A stretch of DNA of 32,788 nucleotides, taken from an uncultured Clostridia bacterium. GTDB taxonomy: Bacteria; Bacillota; Clostridia; Christensenellales; Borkfalkiaceae. The translations under genes were made by a program, and so were the position numbers. The stretch lies in NCBI GenBank assembly GCA_947589085.1, contig CANPZD010000010.1, positions 1-32,788 of the forward strand, given 5' to 3'. Below the pieces are notes generated by a model, which was not told where the DNA came from, did no database searches, and was given only the letters and a program-made list of their open reading frames with translations. How positions within the stretch are numbered: position 1 is the stretch's first letter; every line of letters begins with the position of its first letter. Below are positions 5,831 through 31,956 of the stretch, one piece after another.

Positions 5831-5859
5831 GACGGGGAGATTATTTCCCGCCGTTTTTT
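5831..5859 (+). terminator. Probable terminator before the MarR locus
   Basis: ACGGGGA and TCCCGCCGT form a bulged stem followed by six T (5854-5859). The gap 5699-5830 shows no gene that I would defend. Confidence 0.6.
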
Positions 5860-5881: not shown

Positions 5882-5910
5882 TTGACAGAAATCCGAAGTC
5901 GTATTATAAT
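5882..5910 (+). promoter_or_regulatory. Consensus promoter of the MarR operon
   Basis: TTGACA at 5882-5887 and TATAAT at 5905-5910 with a 17-bp spacer: a perfect sigma-A consensus. Such a strong promoter is usually held down by a repressor, which fits the operator overlapping it. Confidence 0.92.
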
Positions 5911-5931
5911 TAAAATACGAAATCGGATTTC
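5888..5931. promoter_or_regulatory. Inverted-repeat operator overlapping the MarR promoter
   Basis: Two 17-bp arms (5888-5904 and 5915-5931) are inverted repeats with 15 of 17 matches around a 10-bp A/T centre. The outer half is GAAATCCGA / TCGGATTTC and the inner half TCGTAT / ATACGA. The repeat covers the spacer and -10 box and runs past the predicted start of transcription. Placement and symmetry suggest binding by the adjacent MarR dimer, possibly two dimers. Confidence 0.82.
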
Positions 5932-5941
5932 ATAGGAATGT

Positions 5942-6391
5942 ATGGACGAACGGAACTTTTTTTACCGGCTGGGGAAGCTCGTATACAGGCTCGACGGGGT
6001 GTACGACGAATACGGGCGCAACTTTCATATAGGCTCTCCGAATCTTCTGTGGATCTTATATGCCCTGAACGACGGAGAGCGGCACAGCCAAAAGCAGATC
6101 TGCGAAGATTGGGCGATCCCCAGGAGCACGGCAAACACGATCATCAAAGATTTGGAGAGCAAAAATTACGTTGCGCTTTCTCAAATCAAGGGAGAGCGCC
6201 GGGAATTGTTGGTTTCCCTTACCCCGCGCGGAAAAAAGTATGCGGACGGAATTTTGTCCGATCTCTATCGCCGGGAAGATGAAATCTATTCGGAGCTGAC
6301 AGATCCTGAAGCGTTGCTTTCCGCATTGCGGGACTTATCGGCGAAAATGCAGAAGATCGCCGTGAAAAAAGAGGAAGGAGAAACATCATGA
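5942..6391 (+). CDS. MarR-family transcriptional regulator
   Basis: A 149-residue winged-helix protein of MarR type. Helical N-terminus (1-30) for dimerisation, helix-turn-helix about 50-75 (QKQICEDWAIPRSTANTIIK), wing around 80-100 (ALSQIKGERRELLVSLTPRG), and helical C-terminus. MarR proteins usually repress their own operon and release DNA on binding an aromatic or oxidised ligand, or on cysteine oxidation; C54 is the only cysteine seen, inside the helix-turn-helix. The gene sits ten bases after a large operator and overlaps the following flavodoxin gene by four bases (ATGA), so it is the first gene of an operon that it likely represses. Confidence 0.9.
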   Translation: MDERNFFYRLGKLVYRLDGVYDEYGRNFHIGSPNLLWILYALNDGERHSQKQICEDWAIPRSTANTIIKDLESKNYVALSQIKGERRELLVSLTPRGKKYADGILSDLYRREDEIYSELTDPEALLSALRDLSAKMQKIAVKKEEGETS

Positions 6392-6864
6392 AACGGATTT
6401 TGGTAGCCTATTTTTCGGCAAGCGGCACGACCGCAAAAACGGCAGGCGAGCTGGCGGCGGCGATCGGCGCAGATCTCTATGAGATCAAGCCGAAAGTTCC
6501 CTATACCCGTGCGGATCTCGATTGGACGAACAAGCGCTCGCGGAGCAGCGTCGAGATGAGCGACAAGACGTCCCGTCCCGCGCTTGCGGATACGAACGCC
6601 CCCGTTGCGGCGTACGATACGATCTTTCTGGGTTTTCCCATCTGGTGGTACACGGCGCCCACGATCGTGAACAGCTTTTTGGAAAGCTACGATTTTTCGG
6701 GCAAAAAGATCATTCTCTTTGCAACGAGCGGCGGCAGCGGGTTCGGACGGACGAGAGAGGATCTTTTAAGATCCGCGGGAAAGAACGCGGCCGTGGTCGA
6801 GGGGAAACTTCTGAACGGCGCTTATTCGGCTGCGGAACTCAAAAGCTGGAGCGAAAAGTTTTAA
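6388..6864 (+). CDS. Flavodoxin-family protein
   Basis: A 158-residue flavodoxin-like protein. Phosphate loop FSASGTTAKTA (residues 9-19), the second FMN-binding loop around GFPIWWYTAP and the third around ATSGGSGFG are all present. The Tyr/Trp-rich loop fits stacking on FMN. The closest style is the short-chain flavodoxins annotated with NAD(P)H-quinone or electron-transfer roles in Clostridia. It is translationally coupled to the MarR gene and resembles the lipoprotein flavodoxin at 8017 in several segments (YT..DLD, PIWW, TSGGS). Likely cytosolic; the redox partner is unknown. Confidence 0.88.
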   Translation: MKRILVAYFSASGTTAKTAGELAAAIGADLYEIKPKVPYTRADLDWTNKRSRSSVEMSDKTSRPALADTNAPVAAYDTIFLGFPIWWYTAPTIVNSFLESYDFSGKKIILFATSGGSGFGRTREDLLRSAGKNAAVVEGKLLNGAYSAAELKSWSEKF

Positions 6865-6898
6865 TCGGCGAAAATAATGATTTTCGGAGGGGATCTGA

Positions 6899-7651
6899 AT
6901 GGAAAAGATCACGCAAGACGCGGGAAGAAAGTCGCTCGGGCAGTTTGCTCCCGACTTTGCGCACTATAACGACGACGTTCTCTTCGGCGAGAATTGGAAC
7001 AATCGGGATATCGACCATAAAACGCGCTGCATCATCACGGTCGTGGCGCTCATGGCGTCGGGGATCACCGATTCCTCGCTGAAATACCACCTTGAAAACG
7101 CAAAAAAAGCGGGCGTGACGAAGCGAGAAATTGCCGCCGTCGTCACGCACGTCGCCTTTTATGCGGGGTGGCCCAAGGCGTGGGCGGTATTCAACATGGC
7201 AAAGGAAGTGTGGGCGGAATCGGGCGCGGACACGGAAAGGGCGGCTCACGAAAATCAAATGATATTCCCCATCGGCGCGCCGAACGACGCTTTCAAACAG
7301 TATTTCAGCGGGAAGAGCTATCTTGCGCCCGTTTCCGAAGAGCAAGTGGGGATCTTCAATGTGACGTTCGAGCCGGGTTGCCGCAATCATTGGCATATTC
7401 ATCATGCCGAGAAGGGCGGCGGGCAGATCCTTATTTGCGTCGCGGGGCGCGGATATTATCGGGAATGGGGAAAAGAGGCCGTCGAAATGAAGCCCGGCGA
7501 CGTCGTCAACATTCCCGCGGGCGTGAAGCATTGGCACGGCGCCGCGAAAAACAGTTGGTTTTCCCATCTTGCGGTCGAGGTGCCGGGCGAAAACAGTTCG
7601 AACGAATGGTTGGAGCCTGTCTCGGAGGAAGAATATCGTAAACTTCCGTGA
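6899..7651 (+). CDS. Carboxymuconolactone decarboxylase-like / cupin fusion protein
   Basis: A 250-residue two-domain protein. Residues 1-110 are a carboxymuconolactone decarboxylase/AhpD-like helical domain (TRCIITVVALMASG, then HVAFYAGWPKAW), lacking the AhpD CxxC pair. Residues 125-240 are a cupin: NHWHIHHAEKGGGQ supplies the first metal-binding motif (three His and a distal acid or Gln), and PAGVKHWHGA the second. Such fusions are common next to flavodoxins and reductases in anaerobes and are thought to handle quinones or other reactive small molecules; the reaction is not established. GGAGG lies before ATG 6899. It is the third gene in the MarR operon. Confidence 0.85.
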   Translation: MEKITQDAGRKSLGQFAPDFAHYNDDVLFGENWNNRDIDHKTRCIITVVALMASGITDSSLKYHLENAKKAGVTKREIAAVVTHVAFYAGWPKAWAVFNMAKEVWAESGADTERAAHENQMIFPIGAPNDAFKQYFSGKSYLAPVSEEQVGIFNVTFEPGCRNHWHIHHAEKGGGQILICVAGRGYYREWGKEAVEMKPGDVVNIPAGVKHWHGAAKNSWFSHLAVEVPGENSSNEWLEPVSEEEYRKLP

Positions 7652-7663
7652 TCGAGGTGCGAT

Positions 7664-7963
7664 ATGAGTTTTACGGTCAATATCTACTACACGGGAACAA
7701 ACGGAAACGCGCGCAAATTTGCCGAAGAAATGCAGGCGAGCGGTCTTGCGGATCAAATCCGCGCCGAAGAAGGCAATCTCCGCTATGACTATTTTTTGCC
7801 CATGAACGACAGCGAAACGGTGCTGCTGATCGACGGCTGGGAAAGCGAAGAGGCTCTTGATTTTCACCATAAAAGCCCTATGATGAAAAGGATCGCCGCG
7901 CTCCGCGAGAAATATCGCCTCCAAATGCGGGTGCAGAAATTCATCGAAATAAATCAGAAATGA
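7664..7963 (+). CDS. Small monooxygenase-like protein (ABM / YgiN type)
   Basis: A 99-residue ferredoxin-like alpha/beta protein of the antibiotic biosynthesis monooxygenase family: N-terminal strand VNIYYTG, a helix, EEGNLRYDYF (the typical E.G.L.Y strand), WESEEALDFHHKSP (the W.....L..H.....F region). YgiN-type members oxidise quinols without a cofactor; others have unknown roles. A GAGG lies before ATG 7664, 12 nt after the CMD-cupin gene, so it is clearly co-transcribed. Its company with flavodoxins supports quinone or aromatic-compound handling. Confidence 0.82.
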   Translation: MSFTVNIYYTGTNGNARKFAEEMQASGLADQIRAEEGNLRYDYFLPMNDSETVLLIDGWESEEALDFHHKSPMMKRIAALREKYRLQMRVQKFIEINQK

Positions 7964-8016
7964 TATACGGCGCAAGCAAGGTACATGCCTGCGATGATAT
8001 CATTGAGGAGTCATCA

Positions 8017-8604
8017 ATGAAAAGAATAAAATGGGCGTCAATTCTGCTCGTCGTCATAAGCTGTTTTCTGTTTTCGCTTACGGCTTGCGGCGGCGCCGAC
8101 GAGGAAGGCAAACTTGATGACGCCGATCCGTCAAAAATCCTCGTCGCATATTTTTCTTGTACGGGCAATACCGAGAGGATCGCGGGATTGATCGCGGAAG
8201 TTACGCACGGCACGGAATATGAGATCGAACCGCAAATACCCTATACGCCGGAGGATCTCGATTATAGCGACAGCACGACCCGCGCGACGGCAGAACAAAA
8301 CAATCCCGACGCCCGCCCCGCGATCAGCGGAACGGTGGAAAATATGGCGGAATATGACGTTGTCTATCTCGGCTATCCCATTTGGTGGGGGGAAGCGCCG
8401 AAGATCATCTGCACGTTCCTCGAACGTTACGATTTTGCGGGCAAGACGATCGTTCCTTTCTGCACGTCCGGCGGCAGCGAAATTGCGGCAAGCGTAACAA
8501 CTCTGAAGAAGCTCGATACCGGCGCAACTTGGCGAAACGGCAAGAGGTTCTCTTCCTCGGCGACAAAAAATCAGATCGAAGATTGGGTGAAAAGTTTGTT
8601 TTGA
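8017..8604 (+). CDS. Lipoprotein flavodoxin
   Basis: A 195-residue protein with an N-terminal lipoprotein signal (lipobox LTAC, C24 as the lipidated Cys), a short acidic linker, then a flavodoxin domain: FSCTGNTERIAG at 46-57 as phosphate loop, LGYPIWWGEAPK and FCTSGGSEIA as flavin loops. ATG 8017 is chosen because GAGGAG lies six bases upstream and because the signal begins there; an earlier in-frame start at 7960 would spoil it. The flavin domain should face the outside of the membrane. Related in sequence to the cytosolic flavodoxin at 6388. The pair suggests electron transfer on both sides of the membrane. Confidence 0.87.
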   Translation: MKRIKWASILLVVISCFLFSLTACGGADEEGKLDDADPSKILVAYFSCTGNTERIAGLIAEVTHGTEYEIEPQIPYTPEDLDYSDSTTRATAEQNNPDARPAISGTVENMAEYDVVYLGYPIWWGEAPKIICTFLERYDFAGKTIVPFCTSGGSEIAASVTTLKKLDTGATWRNGKRFSSSATKNQIEDWVKSLF

Positions 8605-8660
8605 TCATTGTAAGACCGAACGGTTTTGATATTGCAAGGTCAGAGACGCAGTCTGAAAAA

Positions 8661-8694
8661 AATCCGCGGTTCGGCGTTTGCCGAACCGCGGATT
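8661..8694. terminator. Strong bidirectional terminator between convergent operons
   Basis: A perfect 15-bp stem (8661-8675 with 8680-8694, 4-nt loop). Reading the minus strand, it is followed by a run of seven T, so it is a classical terminator for glyQS; on the plus strand it is followed by a weaker T-rich tract and probably also ends the MarR operon. Confidence 0.92.
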
Positions 8695-8721
8695 TAGATT
8701 TCGGTTGAATCCGGAGTTTTT

Positions 8722-10098
8722 TCAGAATGCGCACTTTTCCGCCAAAAAGGAGATCACTTCGTCGGGCGAAAGGCGGATCTGTTCCATGGTATCGCGGTCG
8801 CGCACGGTCACGGTGCCGTTTTCGAGCGTATCGAAGTCGATCGTCAGGCAGTACGGCGTGCCGATCTCATCCTGCCGGCGGTACCGTTTGCCGATGGATC
8901 CGGCCTCGTCGTAGGTCACGGAGAAGCGCTTTTTGAGTTTTGCAAGCAGTTCCTTTGCCTGCGGCGCGAGATTCTTTTGAAGAGGCAGTACGGCGGCCTT
9001 ATACGCCGCGATCGCGGGATGAAAATGCATGACGTTGCGCGTTTCGCCGTTTTCCAGCGTCTCCTCGTCGTATGCTTCGGTGAGCACGGCGAGCATGAGA
9101 CGGTCCGCGCCGATGGAATATTCGATCACATAGGGGATATACCGTTCTCCGCTTACGGGATCCACATAGGTAAGCGTCTTGCCCGAGTATTCCTGATGGC
9201 GGGAAAGGTCGTAATCCGAGCGATTGTGAATGCCGTTCAGTTCCTGCCAACCCATGGGATAGAGATACTGAATATCGCATGCCGCGCGCGCATAGTGAGC
9301 GAGCTTGTCGTGATCGTGGAAGCGCAGATGTTCTCTCTTGAACCCGAGATCGAGCAGGAAATCAAACGCCTTTTGTTTGAATTCATTGTAATAGGCTTCG
9401 TCGGTGCCTTCTTTGCAGAACCACTGGTGCTCCATTTGTTCGAATTCGATCGTGCGGAAAATAAAGTTGCCGGGGGTGATCTCATTCCGGAAGGCCTTGC
9501 CGATCTGCGCGATGCCGAAGGGAACTTTCGCGCGCGTTGTGCGCTGCACGTTGAGGAAGTTGACAAATTCGCCTTGCGCCGTCTCGGGGCGCAGATAGAT
9601 CTTGTTCTGGCTCTCGTCCGTTACGCCGCGGGAAGTTTCGAACATGAGATTGAACGTGCGGATCGGCGTCCAGTTGAATTGGCCGCAGACGGGGCAGTTC
9701 ACATGGTGTTCTTCGATGTATTTTTGCATCTCCTCGTTGGACATGGTATCGGGATTTACCGTCCCTTTGCTGTGCGATTCGATGAGAGTATCGGCGCGGT
9801 GGCGCGTCTTGCAGGACTTGCAGTCCATTTTGGGATCGGAGAACGACGTGGTATGTCCGCTCGCTTCCCACACGCGGGAATTCATGAGGATCGCCGCGTC
9901 CACGCCGAAAGAATTGTCGCTCTCGGCGACGAACCGCTTCCACCAGGCGCGTTTGATATTGTTCTTGATCTCCACGCCCACGGGGCCGTAGTCCCAGGTG
10001 TTGCCCATTCCGCCGTAGATCTCGCTGCCGGGGAAAACGATCCCGCGCGCCTTGCAGAGCGCAACGAGTTTTTCCATTGTGACCGCATTTTCTGCCAT
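8722..10098 (-). CDS. glyQS: Glycyl-tRNA synthetase, dimeric type
   Basis: A 458-residue class II aminoacyl-tRNA synthetase that charges tRNA-Gly. Signature parts: GGMGNTWDYGPVG near the N-terminus, a CxxC...CxxC insertion (C93, C96, C135, C138), the glycine-specific RPETAQ at 170-175, motif 2 (IGKAFRNE, 199-206) and motif 3 (GADR, 330-333), followed by the anticodon-binding domain. This is the alpha2 form found in Thermus and many Clostridia, unlike the alpha2beta2 form of Bacillus subtilis. AAGGATGG precedes the ATG at 10098. Its promoter starts transcription only some 25 nt upstream, so there is no room for a T-box leader. Monocistronic, ended by the hairpin at 8661-8694. Confidence 0.97.
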   Translation of the reverse strand: MAENAVTMEKLVALCKARGIVFPGSEIYGGMGNTWDYGPVGVEIKNNIKRAWWKRFVAESDNSFGVDAAILMNSRVWEASGHTTSFSDPKMDCKSCKTRHRADTLIESHSKGTVNPDTMSNEEMQKYIEEHHVNCPVCGQFNWTPIRTFNLMFETSRGVTDESQNKIYLRPETAQGEFVNFLNVQRTTRAKVPFGIAQIGKAFRNEITPGNFIFRTIEFEQMEHQWFCKEGTDEAYYNEFKQKAFDFLLDLGFKREHLRFHDHDKLAHYARAACDIQYLYPMGWQELNGIHNRSDYDLSRHQEYSGKTLTYVDPVSGERYIPYVIEYSIGADRLMLAVLTEAYDEETLENGETRNVMHFHPAIAAYKAAVLPLQKNLAPQAKELLAKLKKRFSVTYDEAGSIGKRYRRQDEIGTPYCLTIDFDTLENGTVTVRDRDTMEQIRLSPDEVISFLAEKCAF

Positions 10099-27516: not shown

Positions 27517-30500
27517 ATGAAGGCAAAAAAGTGGCTGATCGTTGTTTTTTCGCTTGTCATGGCGATGTGTGTCGGTCTCGGCGTAGCTGCGTGCAAGAAC
27601 GAGCCGAAGAAGCACGTGCATGATTACAGCGAATGGGCATACGACGGCGCTGAGCACTGGAAGGAGTGTCCGGTGGACGAAGCGGCGGACGAGAGCACGC
27701 GTGAAGAACACACGATGGTAGACGGCAAGTGTACGGTGTGTCCTTATCAGGAAGCTCCTGCCGCGCATGTACATAAGTACACCAAGCTCGTTTCGGACGC
27801 GACGAATCACTGGTATGAGTGCCCGGACGACAACGATTACATCACGCAGTTCGGTCATGTTTATGAAAACGGCAAGTGTATCGTATGCGGCAAGGAGGGC
27901 ACGGCGCCTGCAGACGTCGAGCTTGACGAACGCAAATGGTACGTCGTCGGCAACGGCGCGGGTTCGCTTCTCAGCATTACGTGGGAAAAACTCACCGGCG
28001 AATTGACGAAGGCGACGCAGCCGGATTCCAACGGCTACACGGTGTACACCCGCACGCTTGATCTGTACGCGGGCGACCAATTCAAATTCGTGCAGGACCT
28101 CGACTGGGACGAAGGTCTCGGCTATTACAGCCTGAGCGAAGTTGCCAACACCGCGGGCGTATTCCAGGACGGCGGCACGGGCAACATCAAGCTCATGGCG
28201 GGGCAAGACGGCACATACCAATTCATCATCCGCACGAAGCCGGATCTCGGCCCGACGTCGGTCATGGTGGAGTTCCGTCTCGTCGAAGCGCTTGAACCGC
28301 TGAATGTGGAAGAGCAGTTCGATATGTACATCATCGGGCACCTTCATTGCACGGGCGCGTTGGATAACAACACGCAGTGGAGCAAGGATCCCGGGTACAT
28401 GGTGAAGATGAACCTCATGGCAGACGGCGAAACGTTCTACACGGTCGTCGAGCTGTACAGCAACGACGAGTTCAAGGTATACAACCTCAGAACGAACGCG
28501 TACTTCCCAGACGGCACGGGTAACAACCTGAAACCTCCCAAGACGACGCTCTATGTCGTTACATGGAAGATCGGCGACGCAAGCCCGGTATGGGAAGAAT
28601 ATCATCACGTCCATAACTATTCCGAATACAAGCACGACGCGAACGAACACTGGTGCGTGTGCGTGCAGGACGGCGAAATGGACGAAACGCACGGAAAAGC
28701 GGCGCACGAGTTCGGAGACGACAACTTCTGCGACGTGTGCGGCTATGAAAAGGCAGAGAAACCGGAGTGCGAAACGCATACTTGGGGTACGGATAACGTG
28801 TGCACGGTGTGCGGCCGTCACTGGGTCTATACCGAGGGATTGAGATATCGGATCAACGAGAAGAAAGACGGCTACTATGTGGTCGGCGTGCACGAGGATA
28901 CCGACCCCGCCACGATCAAAGAGCTTGTGATCCCGCAATACTACAACGGCAAACCCGTCGTCGGGATCCTCGACAAGGCATTCTACGACGGAACGGCGAC
29001 CAATCCCACGTACAGCGGGATCACGAAGGTCGTGCTTCCCGACACGGTCAAGACGATCGGTCAGGACGCGTTCCGCAAACTTGTGAATCTCACCTCGCTG
29101 AAGTTGGGCGCAGGGCTTGAAGAGATCGGCGACAGCGCGTTCCGCGAATGCAGATACGCCCGCGCGATCAATCTTCCCGAAGGGCTGAAAACGATCGGCG
29201 CGAACGCATTCAGCAACATCTGGTTCACCGAAATCACGGTGCCCGCGTCGGTCACGGCGATCGGCAACAATGCGTTCGAAGCGACGTATCTCACCGATCT
29301 GAAGTTCGCGGAAGGCAGCAAACTTGCAACGATCGGCGCCTCCGCATTCTCGGGCTGCGCCTATCTCAAAGAGGTCGCGCTTCCCGAAACGGTGACGAGC
29401 GTCGGCGCAAGCGCGTTTGCAGGCTGCAGCTCTCTCACGTCCCTCACGCTGCCGACGGCGGCGCCTTGGAAGTATGCGGCAAGCACGTCTACGGCGGATT
29501 GGATCGCGCTCGGCGATACCGCGGCGGATCCCGCGGCGGCCGCGACATGGATCAAGGCGCATGCGGCGAACTATCTCATGATCACGGAAGCGCACGAGCA
29601 CAACTTCAAGCTCGGCTTCAACGGCACGCAGCACTGGTACCGCTGCACGATCTGCGACGCGCTCGAAGCGGCGAAGCAGGCGCACAAGATCTTCGATATG
29701 CAGTGCTCCGTCTGCGGATTCGAGCACACGGAACACACGTACAGCACCACGAGCTGGGCGAGCGACGAAACCGGCCACTGGCGCGCATGCCCGCTGGACG
29801 GCGCGGTGGAGCCGGGCACGAAGGTGGCGCATACGTGGAATACTGCCGGCACGATGTGCACGGTTTGCAGATTCCGTCACACGCATACCTATGCCGATAA
29901 TTGGTCGTACGACGAGACCAACCACTGGAAAGACGCGACCTGCGGCCACGAAGTGAAGAACGGCAATGCGGCGCACAGATTCAACGATGAAAACGTCTGC
30001 CCGACGTGCGGCTATGAGCGCATCGTGCAGGGCGAGAACAACGGCACCCCGAATCTTGCGTTCGAATTCAACGAAGACTACACGGGCCTCATCGTCACGG
30101 GCTTCAAAGAAGCTCCCGCGAGCCTGACCGTGATCGAGATCCCCGCAAAGTGCGGCAACTGGCCGGTCGTGGAACTCGGCGACAGTGCGGCGGCCGCGTT
30201 CAAGCCGTTCGCTTCCACCGTCACGAAGGTCGTCATTCCCGATACGGTGAAAGTGGTCCGCGCGAAGATGTTCCAGAACTTCACGGTTCTCAGCGATCTT
30301 ACGATCGGTTCGAGCGTGTACAAGATGGGCGACTATGTGTTCCAGGGCTGCACGTCGCTGCAAAGCGTTGCGCTGCCCGAGAGCCTGTATCAGATCGGTG
30401 CGTACGCGTTCGACGGCTGCACGGCGCTCAAGACGATCAACCTCGAAAATCTCACGAAGATCGGCGATTACGGCTTCCGGAAGTGCTCGCAGCTCGACAA

Positions 30501-31956
30501 CATCAAGTTCAATGAGGGACTCAAGCAGCTCGGCGGCTACACCTTCCAGAACTGCACGGCCCTCAAACATGCGGATTTCAGCGCGCTGAAGGAATTGGAG
30601 CTTGGTAGCTTCGTACAGCTCGCTCCCGGCGTCACGACGTCTGCGGGCCAGGTATTCGAGAACTGCGGATTCGAAACGCTCACCCTGCCCGATAACCTCG
30701 TGGCAAGCACAAGAAGTAACTTTAAGGGCTGCGCGAGCCTCAAGAGCGTCACCTTCGGCAAGAACACGCGGTTTACGTCGGAGGACACATTCAAGGATTG
30801 CGTATTGCTCGACACGATCAACCTCGAGAATATTTCGATCATCTATAGCGGTACATTCGACAACTGCGCCTTCACGACCCTGACGTTCGACTTCGACGCA
30901 TTCACGAATCTCTACGGCAGCGGCTTCTTCACGAACTGCAAACAGCTCAAGACGGTGACGATCAAGGGTACGTACAGCAAGTCGCCGAACCAGTGGAACT
31001 ACTTCTGCCAGGGTTGCACCGCGCTCACATCTGTGACCCTGCCCGACAGTCTCACGGCGATCCCGACCGGCTTCTTCTCCGGCTGCACGTCGCTCACGCA
31101 GTTCACGATCCCCGCGAACTTCACGGCGATCGGAGCGTACGCGTTCCAGAATTGCTCGAAGATCACGACGATCGCGATCCCCGCAAAGGTCACGACGATC
31201 GGCAACTACACGTTCAACGGCTGCTCGCTCCTTGCAACGGTCGACTTCGGAACCGCGCAGATCACATCGATCGGCAACTATGCGTTCCAGAACTGCGCTG
31301 TCCTCAAAACGCTCGCGATCCCCGCAACCGTAACGTCGATCGGCACCTATGCGTTCAAGGGCTGTTCGCTGCTCGACGGGATCACGCTTCCCGCGGGCCT
31401 CACATCGCTCGGCAACTATGCGTTCCAGAACTGCACGTCGCTGAAATCGATCGCGATCCCCGAAAAGGTCGCTTCGATCGGCAACTATACGTTCGACGGC
31501 TGCACGTCGCTCGCGACGGTAGACCTCAGCAAGGCGACGATCAAGTCGATCGGCCAGTATGCGTTCCAGAGCTGCGCCCTTACGACGGTCACGATCCCCG
31601 ATACGGTCACGACGATCGATACCCGCGCATTCTCGAAGTGCGCAAGCCTTGCAACCGTCAACCTCGGCGCAGGCGTCAAGACGATCGGCCAGTACGCGTT
31701 CAACGGCTGCACGTCGCTCACGCAGATCACGATCCCCGCACAGGTGAAGACGATCAGCGTCACGGCGTTCAGAGAGACCGGCCTTACGAGCGTAACGTTT
31801 GTGGATAAAGAGGATTGGTTCCTTGCAACCTCTTCGTCCGGAACAACGACCTTGCCGCTTCCCGGCGACATTTCGGATCCCGCAGCAGCAGCGGCGCTCC
31901 TGAAAGACAACACCGAGTCCACAAGCAGGTATTTCATGAAAGTGCCTCAGGCATGA
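27517..31956 (+). CDS. Giant modular surface lipoprotein with BspA-type leucine-rich repeats
   Basis: A 1479-residue protein from ATG 27517 after GGGAGGT. Residues 1-26 are a lipoprotein signal (VAAC, C26 lipidated). Then: two His/Trp/Cys repeats (about 33-77 and 85-125; pattern HxHxY...HW..C...H...C..C), two beta-rich domains (about 138-265 and 269-360; WYVVG..., MYIIG...) that resemble starch-binding or pullulanase-like modules, a third repeat (363-415) and a partial one (about 418-440), a first LRR_5/BspA array (about 443-645), a cap with DPAAAATW, three more His/Trp/Cys repeats (about 692-841), and a second long LRR array (848-1440) with a similar cap (DPAAAAALL). It should be anchored outside the membrane. 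BspA-type repeats mediate adhesion or host and matrix binding in other organisms; the His/Cys repeats may bind metal. Ligands unknown. Confidence 0.9.
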   Translation: MKAKKWLIVVFSLVMAMCVGLGVAACKNEPKKHVHDYSEWAYDGAEHWKECPVDEAADESTREEHTMVDGKCTVCPYQEAPAAHVHKYTKLVSDATNHWYECPDDNDYITQFGHVYENGKCIVCGKEGTAPADVELDERKWYVVGNGAGSLLSITWEKLTGELTKATQPDSNGYTVYTRTLDLYAGDQFKFVQDLDWDEGLGYYSLSEVANTAGVFQDGGTGNIKLMAGQDGTYQFIIRTKPDLGPTSVMVEFRLVEALEPLNVEEQFDMYIIGHLHCTGALDNNTQWSKDPGYMVKMNLMADGETFYTVVELYSNDEFKVYNLRTNAYFPDGTGNNLKPPKTTLYVVTWKIGDASPVWEEYHHVHNYSEYKHDANEHWCVCVQDGEMDETHGKAAHEFGDDNFCDVCGYEKAEKPECETHTWGTDNVCTVCGRHWVYTEGLRYRINEKKDGYYVVGVHEDTDPATIKELVIPQYYNGKPVVGILDKAFYDGTATNPTYSGITKVVLPDTVKTIGQDAFRKLVNLTSLKLGAGLEEIGDSAFRECRYARAINLPEGLKTIGANAFSNIWFTEITVPASVTAIGNNAFEATYLTDLKFAEGSKLATIGASAFSGCAYLKEVALPETVTSVGASAFAGCSSLTSLTLPTAAPWKYAASTSTADWIALGDTAADPAAAATWIKAHAANYLMITEAHEHNFKLGFNGTQHWYRCTICDALEAAKQAHKIFDMQCSVCGFEHTEHTYSTTSWASDETGHWRACPLDGAVEPGTKVAHTWNTAGTMCTVCRFRHTHTYADNWSYDETNHWKDATCGHEVKNGNAAHRFNDENVCPTCGYERIVQGENNGTPNLAFEFNEDYTGLIVTGFKEAPASLTVIEIPAKCGNWPVVELGDSAAAAFKPFASTVTKVVIPDTVKVVRAKMFQNFTVLSDLTIGSSVYKMGDYVFQGCTSLQSVALPESLYQIGAYAFDGCTALKTINLENLTKIGDYGFRKCSQLDNIKFNEGLKQLGGYTFQNCTALKHADFSALKELELGSFVQLAPGVTTSAGQVFENCGFETLTLPDNLVASTRSNFKGCASLKSVTFGKNTRFTSEDTFKDCVLLDTINLENISIIYSGTFDNCAFTTLTFDFDAFTNLYGSGFFTNCKQLKTVTIKGTYSKSPNQWNYFCQGCTALTSVTLPDSLTAIPTGFFSGCTSLTQFTIPANFTAIGAYAFQNCSKITTIAIPAKVTTIGNYTFNGCSLLATVDFGTAQITSIGNYAFQNCAVLKTLAIPATVTSIGTYAFKGCSLLDGITLPAGLTSLGNYAFQNCTSLKSIAIPEKVASIGNYTFDGCTSLATVDLSKATIKSIGQYAFQSCALTTVTIPDTVTTIDTRAFSKCASLATVNLGAGVKTIGQYAFNGCTSLTQITIPAQVKTISVTAFRETGLTSVTFVDKEDWFLATSSSGTTTLPLPGDISDPAAAAALLKDNTESTSRYFMKVPQA
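31021..31790 (+). repeat. Tandem 23-residue leucine-rich repeats, DNA units about 69 bp
   Basis: Within the lipoprotein gene, about eleven consecutive repeats follow the pattern LxxVTIPxxVTxIGxYAFxxC(T/S)S. Neighbouring units share long identical DNA stretches (for example ATCGGCAACTATGCGTTCCA recurs near 31271 and a close match near 31410), which suggests recent growth by unequal recombination. The array may vary in length between strains and may be prone to misassembly. Confidence 0.8.

Follow-up and report, generated by a model that had tools for sequence, protein, structure and literature searches.

A predicted MarR-controlled operon with cytosolic and lipoprotein-like flavodoxins in an uncultured Clostridia bacterium

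The window analysed here, a stretch of 32,788 nucleotides (nt) from an uncultured Clostridia bacterium of the family Borkfalkiaceae (assembly GCA_947589085.1, contig CANPZD010000010.1), carries five genes on the forward strand from 5942 to 8604. They encode a MarR-family regulator, the flavodoxin FldC, a CMD-cupin protein, an ABM-family protein and FldL, a second flavodoxin with a lipoprotein-like signal. We consider it rather likely that they form an autorepressed operon responding to electrophile or carbonyl stress. Two tandem 16-bp sites lie over the promoter spacer and the start region; MarR bound to them would keep the operon off until a reactive small molecule, acting as a ligand or by reaction with Cys54, releases it. 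FldC loaded with flavin mononucleotide (FMN) would serve as electron donor or acceptor in the cytosol, and the presumably metal-binding CMD-cupin and the ABM protein would convert a compound of the carbonyl or quinone type. FldL, placed on the membrane's outer face with FMN bound non-covalently, would reduce compounds of this class or pass electrons to them. Quinone is one candidate inducer among several. The operon consists mostly of ordinary parts of known kinds, the lipoprotein-type flavodoxin being the odd member. Its features are the following:

5882..5910, forward strand: promoter-like sequence TTGACA-17-TATAAT, matching at 12/12 positions; similar boxes lie upstream of relatives
5890..5905, forward strand: operator-like site 1, AATCCGAAGTCGTATT, in the promoter spacer; exact pattern match
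5914..5929, forward strand: operator-like site 2, AATACGAAATCGGATT, directly past the -10 box; exact pattern match
5888..5931, forward strand: 44-nt inverted repeat built from both operator-like sites; 19/22 pairs
5942..6391, forward strand: MarR-family regulator, 149 amino acids; PF12802, 29.6 bits against a cut-off of 27
6388..6864, forward strand: FldC, signal-less Flavodoxin_4, 158 amino acids; PF12682, E 3.8e-69, 231.6 bits against 24
6899..7651, forward strand: CMD-cupin protein, 250 amino acids; PF02627 and PF07883
7664..7963, forward strand: ABM-family protein, 99 amino acids; PF03992
8017..8604, forward strand: FldL, Flavodoxin_4 with a lipoprotein-like signal (lipobox LTAC), 195 amino acids; PF12682, E 9.5e-54, 181.5 bits against 24
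5833..5850, forward strand: intrinsic-terminator-like site between an upstream isochorismatase-family gene and the operon; folding z -3.3
8660..8695, no strand assigned: strong hairpin separating the operon from the convergent gene 8722-10098; T-run on the reverse-strand side

Promoter, operator-like sites and limits of the operon

Relatives of the operon were taken from a scan with the CMD-cupin protein, from which the best 80 of 583 loci were kept (L numbers below), near relatives being over-represented among them; together with the window they make 81 loci. Families in this survey are single-linkage blastp clusters of our own gene calls, of which representatives were scanned. The 27 MarR-cluster genes provided 20 distinct upstream regions of at least 80 nt, after seven had been dropped (four cut by a locus end, three duplicates).

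The initial annotation had placed the genes behind one perfect promoter. The match is indeed complete, and of the 20 distinct upstream regions, 16 preserve TATAAT and 17 preserve TTGAC, one of the latter (L054) out of register; a lone match of this kind is nevertheless weak, as the scanned 6 kb contain 8 promoter-like sites against 3.6 expected in shuffles. What that account omitted is the 44-nt inverted repeat at 5888-5931, which consists of two tandem MarR-type operator-like sites of 16 bp each, with starts 24 nt apart, overlaying the promoter. Site 2 was found with at most three mismatches in all 20 distinct upstream regions and site 1 with at most two mismatches in 17 of them (it is absent in L005, L013 and L034). 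The pair at a spacing of 23-24 nt occurs in 17/20 regions against 0/10,000 dinucleotide shuffles, a result that reflects conservation and is not a blind test because the pattern was drawn from related sequences. A conserved palindromic site overlaps the MarR gene's own promoter, as would be expected of a MarR-autoregulated operon.

In the whole genome, the exact pattern was matched twice, both times at the operon promoter. With up to two mismatches allowed, the genome yielded 26 rows and the reversed control 3, each palindromic place being counted twice. The genome-wide search for a larger regulon yielded no further exact site and two other one-mismatch places, both inside coding open reading frames (ORFs); the two-mismatch places were not examined. 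Because 17/20 upstream regions keep the pair and the genome offers no other exact copy of it, this operon is probably the only one that MarR represses. The helix-turn-helix region of MarR contains Cys54, which is kept in 23/24 distinct MarR orthologues and may act as a sensor. The view of a MarR-headed unit is supported by both the conserved operator-like pair and the conserved gene set.

The description of five co-directional genes of known families also proved right, and the genes lie between terminator-like hairpins. The MarR and FldC genes overlap by 4 nt. The hairpin behind the operon reaches -35.3 kcal/mol for a 63-nt stretch (z -7.6), and the convergent gene beyond it presumably encodes glycyl-tRNA synthetase. 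The FldL gene, originally read from 7960, was given a corrected start: it probably begins at ATG 8017, which is preceded by GAGGAG, lies 53 nt past the ABM gene and leads into a signal with the LTAC lipobox, while an ORF beginning at 7960 would place an acidic stretch ahead of the signal peptide. The source genome comprises 1.38 Mb in 28 contigs at 96.4% completeness. Of the relatives found, the nearest that bear a name are Clostridia metagenome-assembled genomes labelled Lapin, probably from rabbit gut.

The two flavodoxins and their cofactor

Both flavodoxins exceed the Flavodoxin_4 (PF12682) profile cut-off of 24 bits and share 39% identity. In a tree of 78 flavodoxin domains, 39 of the 40 signal-less forms fall into one clade (100/99), so that FldC and FldL do not stem from a recent duplication. 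The three flavodoxin-type labels need 5 changes on this tree against 29.4 in shuffles. The lipoprotein forms are scattered over more than one clade; the tree has no root, includes long branches and leaves 10 of 75 inner branches open. A rule of our own, combining lipobox and hydrophobicity, served to define the lipoprotein type in place of a trained predictor; the 40 genes of this type correspond to 33 distinct domain rows in the tree. The earlier proposal that flavodoxins occur on both sides of the membrane agrees with these results, since two distinct lineages were found, one of them with a lipoprotein-like signal.

FldL aligns without gaps to 3KLB over residues 39-193 (E 2.9e-44), and its predicted FMN loop is uninterrupted, as it is in all 40 scored lipoprotein-type genes and in seven of eight other extended forms, the eighth (L080_2) being a false motif place. 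Neither FldL nor any of the 40 scored lipoprotein-type genes has an insertion carrying a flavinylation motif between strand 1 and helix 1. These numbers derive from 102 flavodoxin-cluster genes; 10 of them, including L032_0 and L109_4 with lipoprotein-like N-termini, lacked the strand-1 pattern and were excluded from scoring, and four more failed the loop test, one of the extended and three of the cytosolic type.

The search for ApbE gave no match in the 96.4% complete genome of the window; as a control, the same search was positive in 7/14 genomes. FMN_bind, DUF4405 and DsbD_TM had no match in this genome either, and no ApbE-like gene was present among the called genes of the 81 loci. Within the genus, ApbE was detected in 0/13 genomes with a CMD-cupin of at least 83% identity (one of these a contig-edge piece) against 4/6 others. 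Stretches were read from 13 ApbE-negative genomes of the genus, the window's own and 12 more; six of them (own genome, G009, G042, G055, G084 and G140) show a lipoprotein-type flavodoxin in these stretches, all with the plain loop, and for the remaining seven the search did not cover the whole genome. Across the family, ApbE was found in 77/151 genomes, some of which also have the CMD-cupin, so the absence of ApbE is not a rule. Mutual exclusion of operon and ApbE within the genus was likewise dropped as a rule, both occurring in members of genus g8 (G025, G040, G110 and G149). FldL is a candidate non-covalent, ApbE-independent extracytosolic flavodoxin.

Some relatives also have DUF4405. A DUF4405-cluster gene lies within the run (defined as same-strand genes with gaps of at most 250 nt) at 4/78 loci, one of which was scanned. 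At L062:7546-9810 and L107:9525-11504, DUF4405, an FGE-sulfatase-like domain and Flavodoxin_4 are united in one polypeptide encoded downstream of the CMD-cupin and of a lipoprotein-type flavodoxin, the L107 copy stopping within the flavodoxin domain. Among the matches listed for 291 class genomes, one is a near-full-length match to this fusion (G292, query 20-751, 75% identity), and DUF4405 and flavodoxin matches adjoin in some genomes, such as G396 (29 nt apart) and G351 (21 nt apart), where both DUF4405 matches cross a stop. A single-sequence fold of the L062 fusion was discarded (predicted local distance difference test, pLDDT, 37.5) and its hydropathy count gave five peaks that do not settle the topology; that the flavodoxin of this fusion lies outside is thus a presumption.

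Flavodoxin domains were also observed in repeat proteins. In an 11-gene lipoprotein-like cluster (L054:3848-5368, L042:4117-5457 and relatives), the flavodoxin loop is present in 8/11 members; the L054 gene encodes BspA-type leucine-rich and Listeria-Bacteroides repeats followed by a C-terminal Flavodoxin_4, and the L066 member has repeats and no flavodoxin match. The window itself encodes, at 27517-31956, a protein of 1479 amino acids that consists largely of BspA-type leucine-rich repeats.

Enzymes, gene neighbourhoods and rival explanations

The predicted structure of the CMD-cupin protein (pLDDT 85.8) matches TM1010 (2F4P) and the Mn hydroxynitrile lyase 4BIF in its cupin half and, more weakly, 2AF7 in its CMD half. 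H166, H168, Q176 and H211, which we take to be the cupin metal ligands, are invariant and aligned to identical residues of 4BIF and 2F4P. The AhpD peroxidase is characterized by a CxxC pair motif. No conserved CxxC was found in the CMD domain, the only conserved Cys residues of the protein being those at 44, 161 and 180, which makes AhpD-type peroxidase activity unlikely. The equivalog cut-offs of two specific assignments were missed: PcaC decarboxylase (61.7 of 155.7 bits, E 7e-17) and (R)-mandelonitrile lyase (111.9 of 140 bits, CMD-cupin residues 131-248). The 99-residue protein had been called a YgiN-like monooxygenase; it does match the ABM family, but the finer label says more than the sequence shows, as no NCBIfam model matched at E 0.001 and the two PDB hits were 4ZOS and 1X7V.

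After L049 and L053, where the CMD-cupin was not called, had been dropped, 78 loci were counted. Their runs contain aldo/keto reductase (AKR) 26 times, ABM 20, TetR 16, MarR 14, FMN reductase 13, alpha/beta hydrolase 12, cyclophilin-like protein 10, LysR 8, flavin reductase 8, DUF362 6, ArsP_1 5, DUF4405 4, MerR 4, MaaAcT 4, iron-type alcohol dehydrogenase (Fe-ADH) 3 and amidohydrolase 3. A flavodoxin-cluster gene occurs in 51/78 runs, 32 of which have a signal-less form and 32 a lipoprotein or N-terminally extended one; with loop-verified flavodoxins alone the count is 47 (27 and 31, respectively). Among the 81 loci, 15 runs including the window's combine MarR with CMD-cupin, and of these all 15 hold ABM, 10 FldC and 10 a lipoprotein or extended flavodoxin. 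The gene order is thus conserved but modular, with a fixed CMD-cupin and changing regulators and reductases; a search for the five-gene order in relatives recovered the conserved set, whereas the uninterrupted strict order is rare, being confined to the window, L013 and L037 among the window plus L005-L113.

An NmlR-like MerR gene lies divergent from the CMD-cupin in L063, L070, L071, L090 and L095, distinct from the four MerR-cluster genes counted within runs, and the two scanned proteins (L063 and L095) had NmlR as their best model (E 2e-19 and 4e-21). An HxlR gene lies near the CMD-cupin in three loci, one of which was scanned; HxlR relatives such as YodB sense quinones. At L151:674-2134 (reverse strand), a Flavodoxin_4 is fused ahead of an aldo/keto reductase. 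The AKR, Fe-ADH, flavin reductases and NmlR-like or HxlR regulators of the relatives point to defence against electrophiles or carbonyls. This is in agreement with the L151 fusion and with the precedent of AdhR and YraC described in the excerpt of PMC4776306 used here. A pair of genes for a DUF362 lipoprotein-like protein and an ArsP_1 permease was seen near the CMD-cupin cluster at L072:8756-10754 and L107:6763-8762 (the L072 pair was scanned). A possible ECF-type transporter behind FldL in L066, with genes of the same cluster in L010 and, behind ABM, in L012, reached 22.1 bits where the Pfam cut-off is 30.7 bits and was not used as evidence.

Several observations weigh against the stress-operon interpretation. 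A cytosolic and an extracytosolic-type flavodoxin occur together in only 13/78 runs (11 when loop-verified). FldC and FldL-type genes are each absent from 5/15 MarR-type runs, so that neither is indispensable; L034 is tallied as lacking FldL, yet a fused ORF there holds a flavodoxin domain. This ORF (L034:5525-7333) joins amidohydrolase, leucine-rich repeats and Flavodoxin_4 and may be a true fusion or an assembly or deletion join. The NmlR-like MerR proteins score 70-75 bits, below the NmlR cut-off of 175. The operator pattern was derived from the very kin sequences in which it was counted, which deprives the shuffle test of blindness, and as a single long palindrome the repeat tops all 100 shuffles in just 12 of 23 upstream regions, the window included. 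ApbE, FMN_bind, DUF4405 and DsbD_TM all lack a match in the genome, so that no candidate electron donor for FldL emerged. Substrate, inducer, MarR binding and expression are moreover predictions from sequence. The initial annotation, which had proposed a quinone- or electrophile-responsive electron-transfer module, is partly supported: the electrophile and carbonyl context was strengthened by the NmlR-like MerR, HxlR, AKR and Fe-ADH genes, whereas electron exchange between the flavodoxins, quinone as inducer and the electron-transfer role are conjectural. The four redox families tested, of membrane or extracytosolic type, had no match in the genome.

Three other explanations were weighed. The operon could be catabolic, with MarR sensing an aromatic compound or lactone, as MarR proteins of the HpaR type do, the CMD-cupin and ABM proteins degrading it and the flavodoxins donating electrons. 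The weak NCBIfam hits of MarR to HpaR and Saro_0803 (22.5 and 24.6 bits), the match of the CMD domain to PcaC at E 7e-17, below the cut-off, and an amidohydrolase (PF04909) within the run in 3/78 relatives fit this proposal. We nevertheless hold it to be unlikely: the CMD and cupin scores fall below the PcaC and mandelonitrile-lyase cut-offs, ring-opening genes are not among the recurrent families identified in the runs (unlabelled genes remain), and the companions that were identified are mostly reductases and regulators. About as improbable is a FldL that is no redox carrier and instead binds or scavenges FMN at the surface, or persists as a passive paralogue kept by linkage. The lack of a match for the four candidate redox families in the genome, the five of 15 MarR-type runs where no FldL-type gene was counted and the surface-type fusions with BspA-type leucine-rich repeats would suit such a role, whereas the gap-free flavodoxin core, the strong sorting of cytosolic and extracytosolic types in the tree and the union of DUF4405 and flavodoxin in one protein in other clusters speak for a redox function.

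Slightly less improbable is a transmembrane relay, a narrower form of the stress-operon reading and compatible with it, in which the membrane would supply FldL with electrons for discharge outside; clusters with DUF4405 cytochromes may work in this way. According to the excerpts of Huang et al. 2024 (PMC11334425) drawn on here, DUF4405 is a heme b-binding domain, and a flavinylated Flavodoxin_4 is a frequent member of apbE-DUF4405 clusters. The four DUF4405-containing runs and the two further loci with the DUF4405-FGE-Flavodoxin_4 fusion (L062 and L107) are consistent with this arrangement. In the window's genome, however, DUF4405 has no match, so the donor of FldL would have to be a different one there. 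We tentatively put forward a wider idea that is possible rather than likely: a subfamily in gut Clostridia in which surface flavodoxins with non-covalent FMN would act as induced, ApbE-independent electron carriers against reactive compounds, wired to DUF4405 in some relatives, even in one polypeptide, and to another donor elsewhere. The recurrence of a lipoprotein-type subfamily with a plain, predicted non-covalent site, in some cases in genomes without an ApbE match, would make it a counter-case to the published link with covalent flavin, and the operator-like pair offers a handle on the reactive compounds to which gut Clostridia are exposed and on how these may be dealt with at the cell surface.

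Comparison with known systems

No description of this operon or of a non-covalent lipoprotein Flavodoxin_4 was found in the literature search, outside of which lay most subscription papers and bioRxiv. The combination of MarR with a flavodoxin-like protein in gut Clostridia resembles the BilQRS bilirubin-reductase operon as outlined in the excerpt of PMC10769871 used here. Membership in this system was rejected on the scores of BilQ (20.8 of 125 bits) and BilS (20.9 of 155 bits); the BilR-type reductase is absent and the products are MarR, two Flavodoxin_4 proteins, CMD-cupin and ABM. The CMD-cupin protein resembles 4BIF and TM1010 (2F4P) in its cupin half by fold or sequence, with the HxH, Q and H residues conserved, and 2AF7 and 4G9Q in its CMD half by fold or sequence; unlike all four, it joins two domains in one chain.

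In Bacillus subtilis, AdhR (NmlR) up-regulates the gamma-CMD protein YraC on exposure to methylglyoxal or formaldehyde, and in this regulon (AdhR, AdhA and YraC) a CMD-family protein and an alcohol dehydrogenase are induced by aldehyde stress (PMC4776306, excerpt). The likeness lies in the NmlR-like MerR that adjoins the same CMD-cupin in the window's relatives, the difference in the window's MarR, CMD-cupin fusion, ABM and flavodoxins.

A close parallel to FldL is provided by the flavinylated Flavodoxin_4 proteins associated with ApbE and DUF4405. According to the same excerpts of Huang et al. 2024 (PMC11334425), signs of flavinylation mark extracytosolic flavodoxins but not cytosolic ones, ApbE-associated Flavodoxin_4 proteins bear the flavinylated Ser/Thr on an insertion that separates strand 1 from helix 1, and the covalent bond is explained as a guard against flavin loss. 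FldL belongs to the same Pfam family, is predicted to be extracytosolic and likewise comes from Firmicutes, and some relatives of the window's cluster also hold DUF4405. In contrast to these proteins, FldL lacks the insertion and its genome has no ApbE match. Another parallel is the Bacteroides fragilis Flavodoxin_4 structure 3KLB, reported with non-covalent FMN (PMC11334425), to which FldL aligns gap-free over the whole domain; FldL has a lipoprotein-like signal ahead of this domain.

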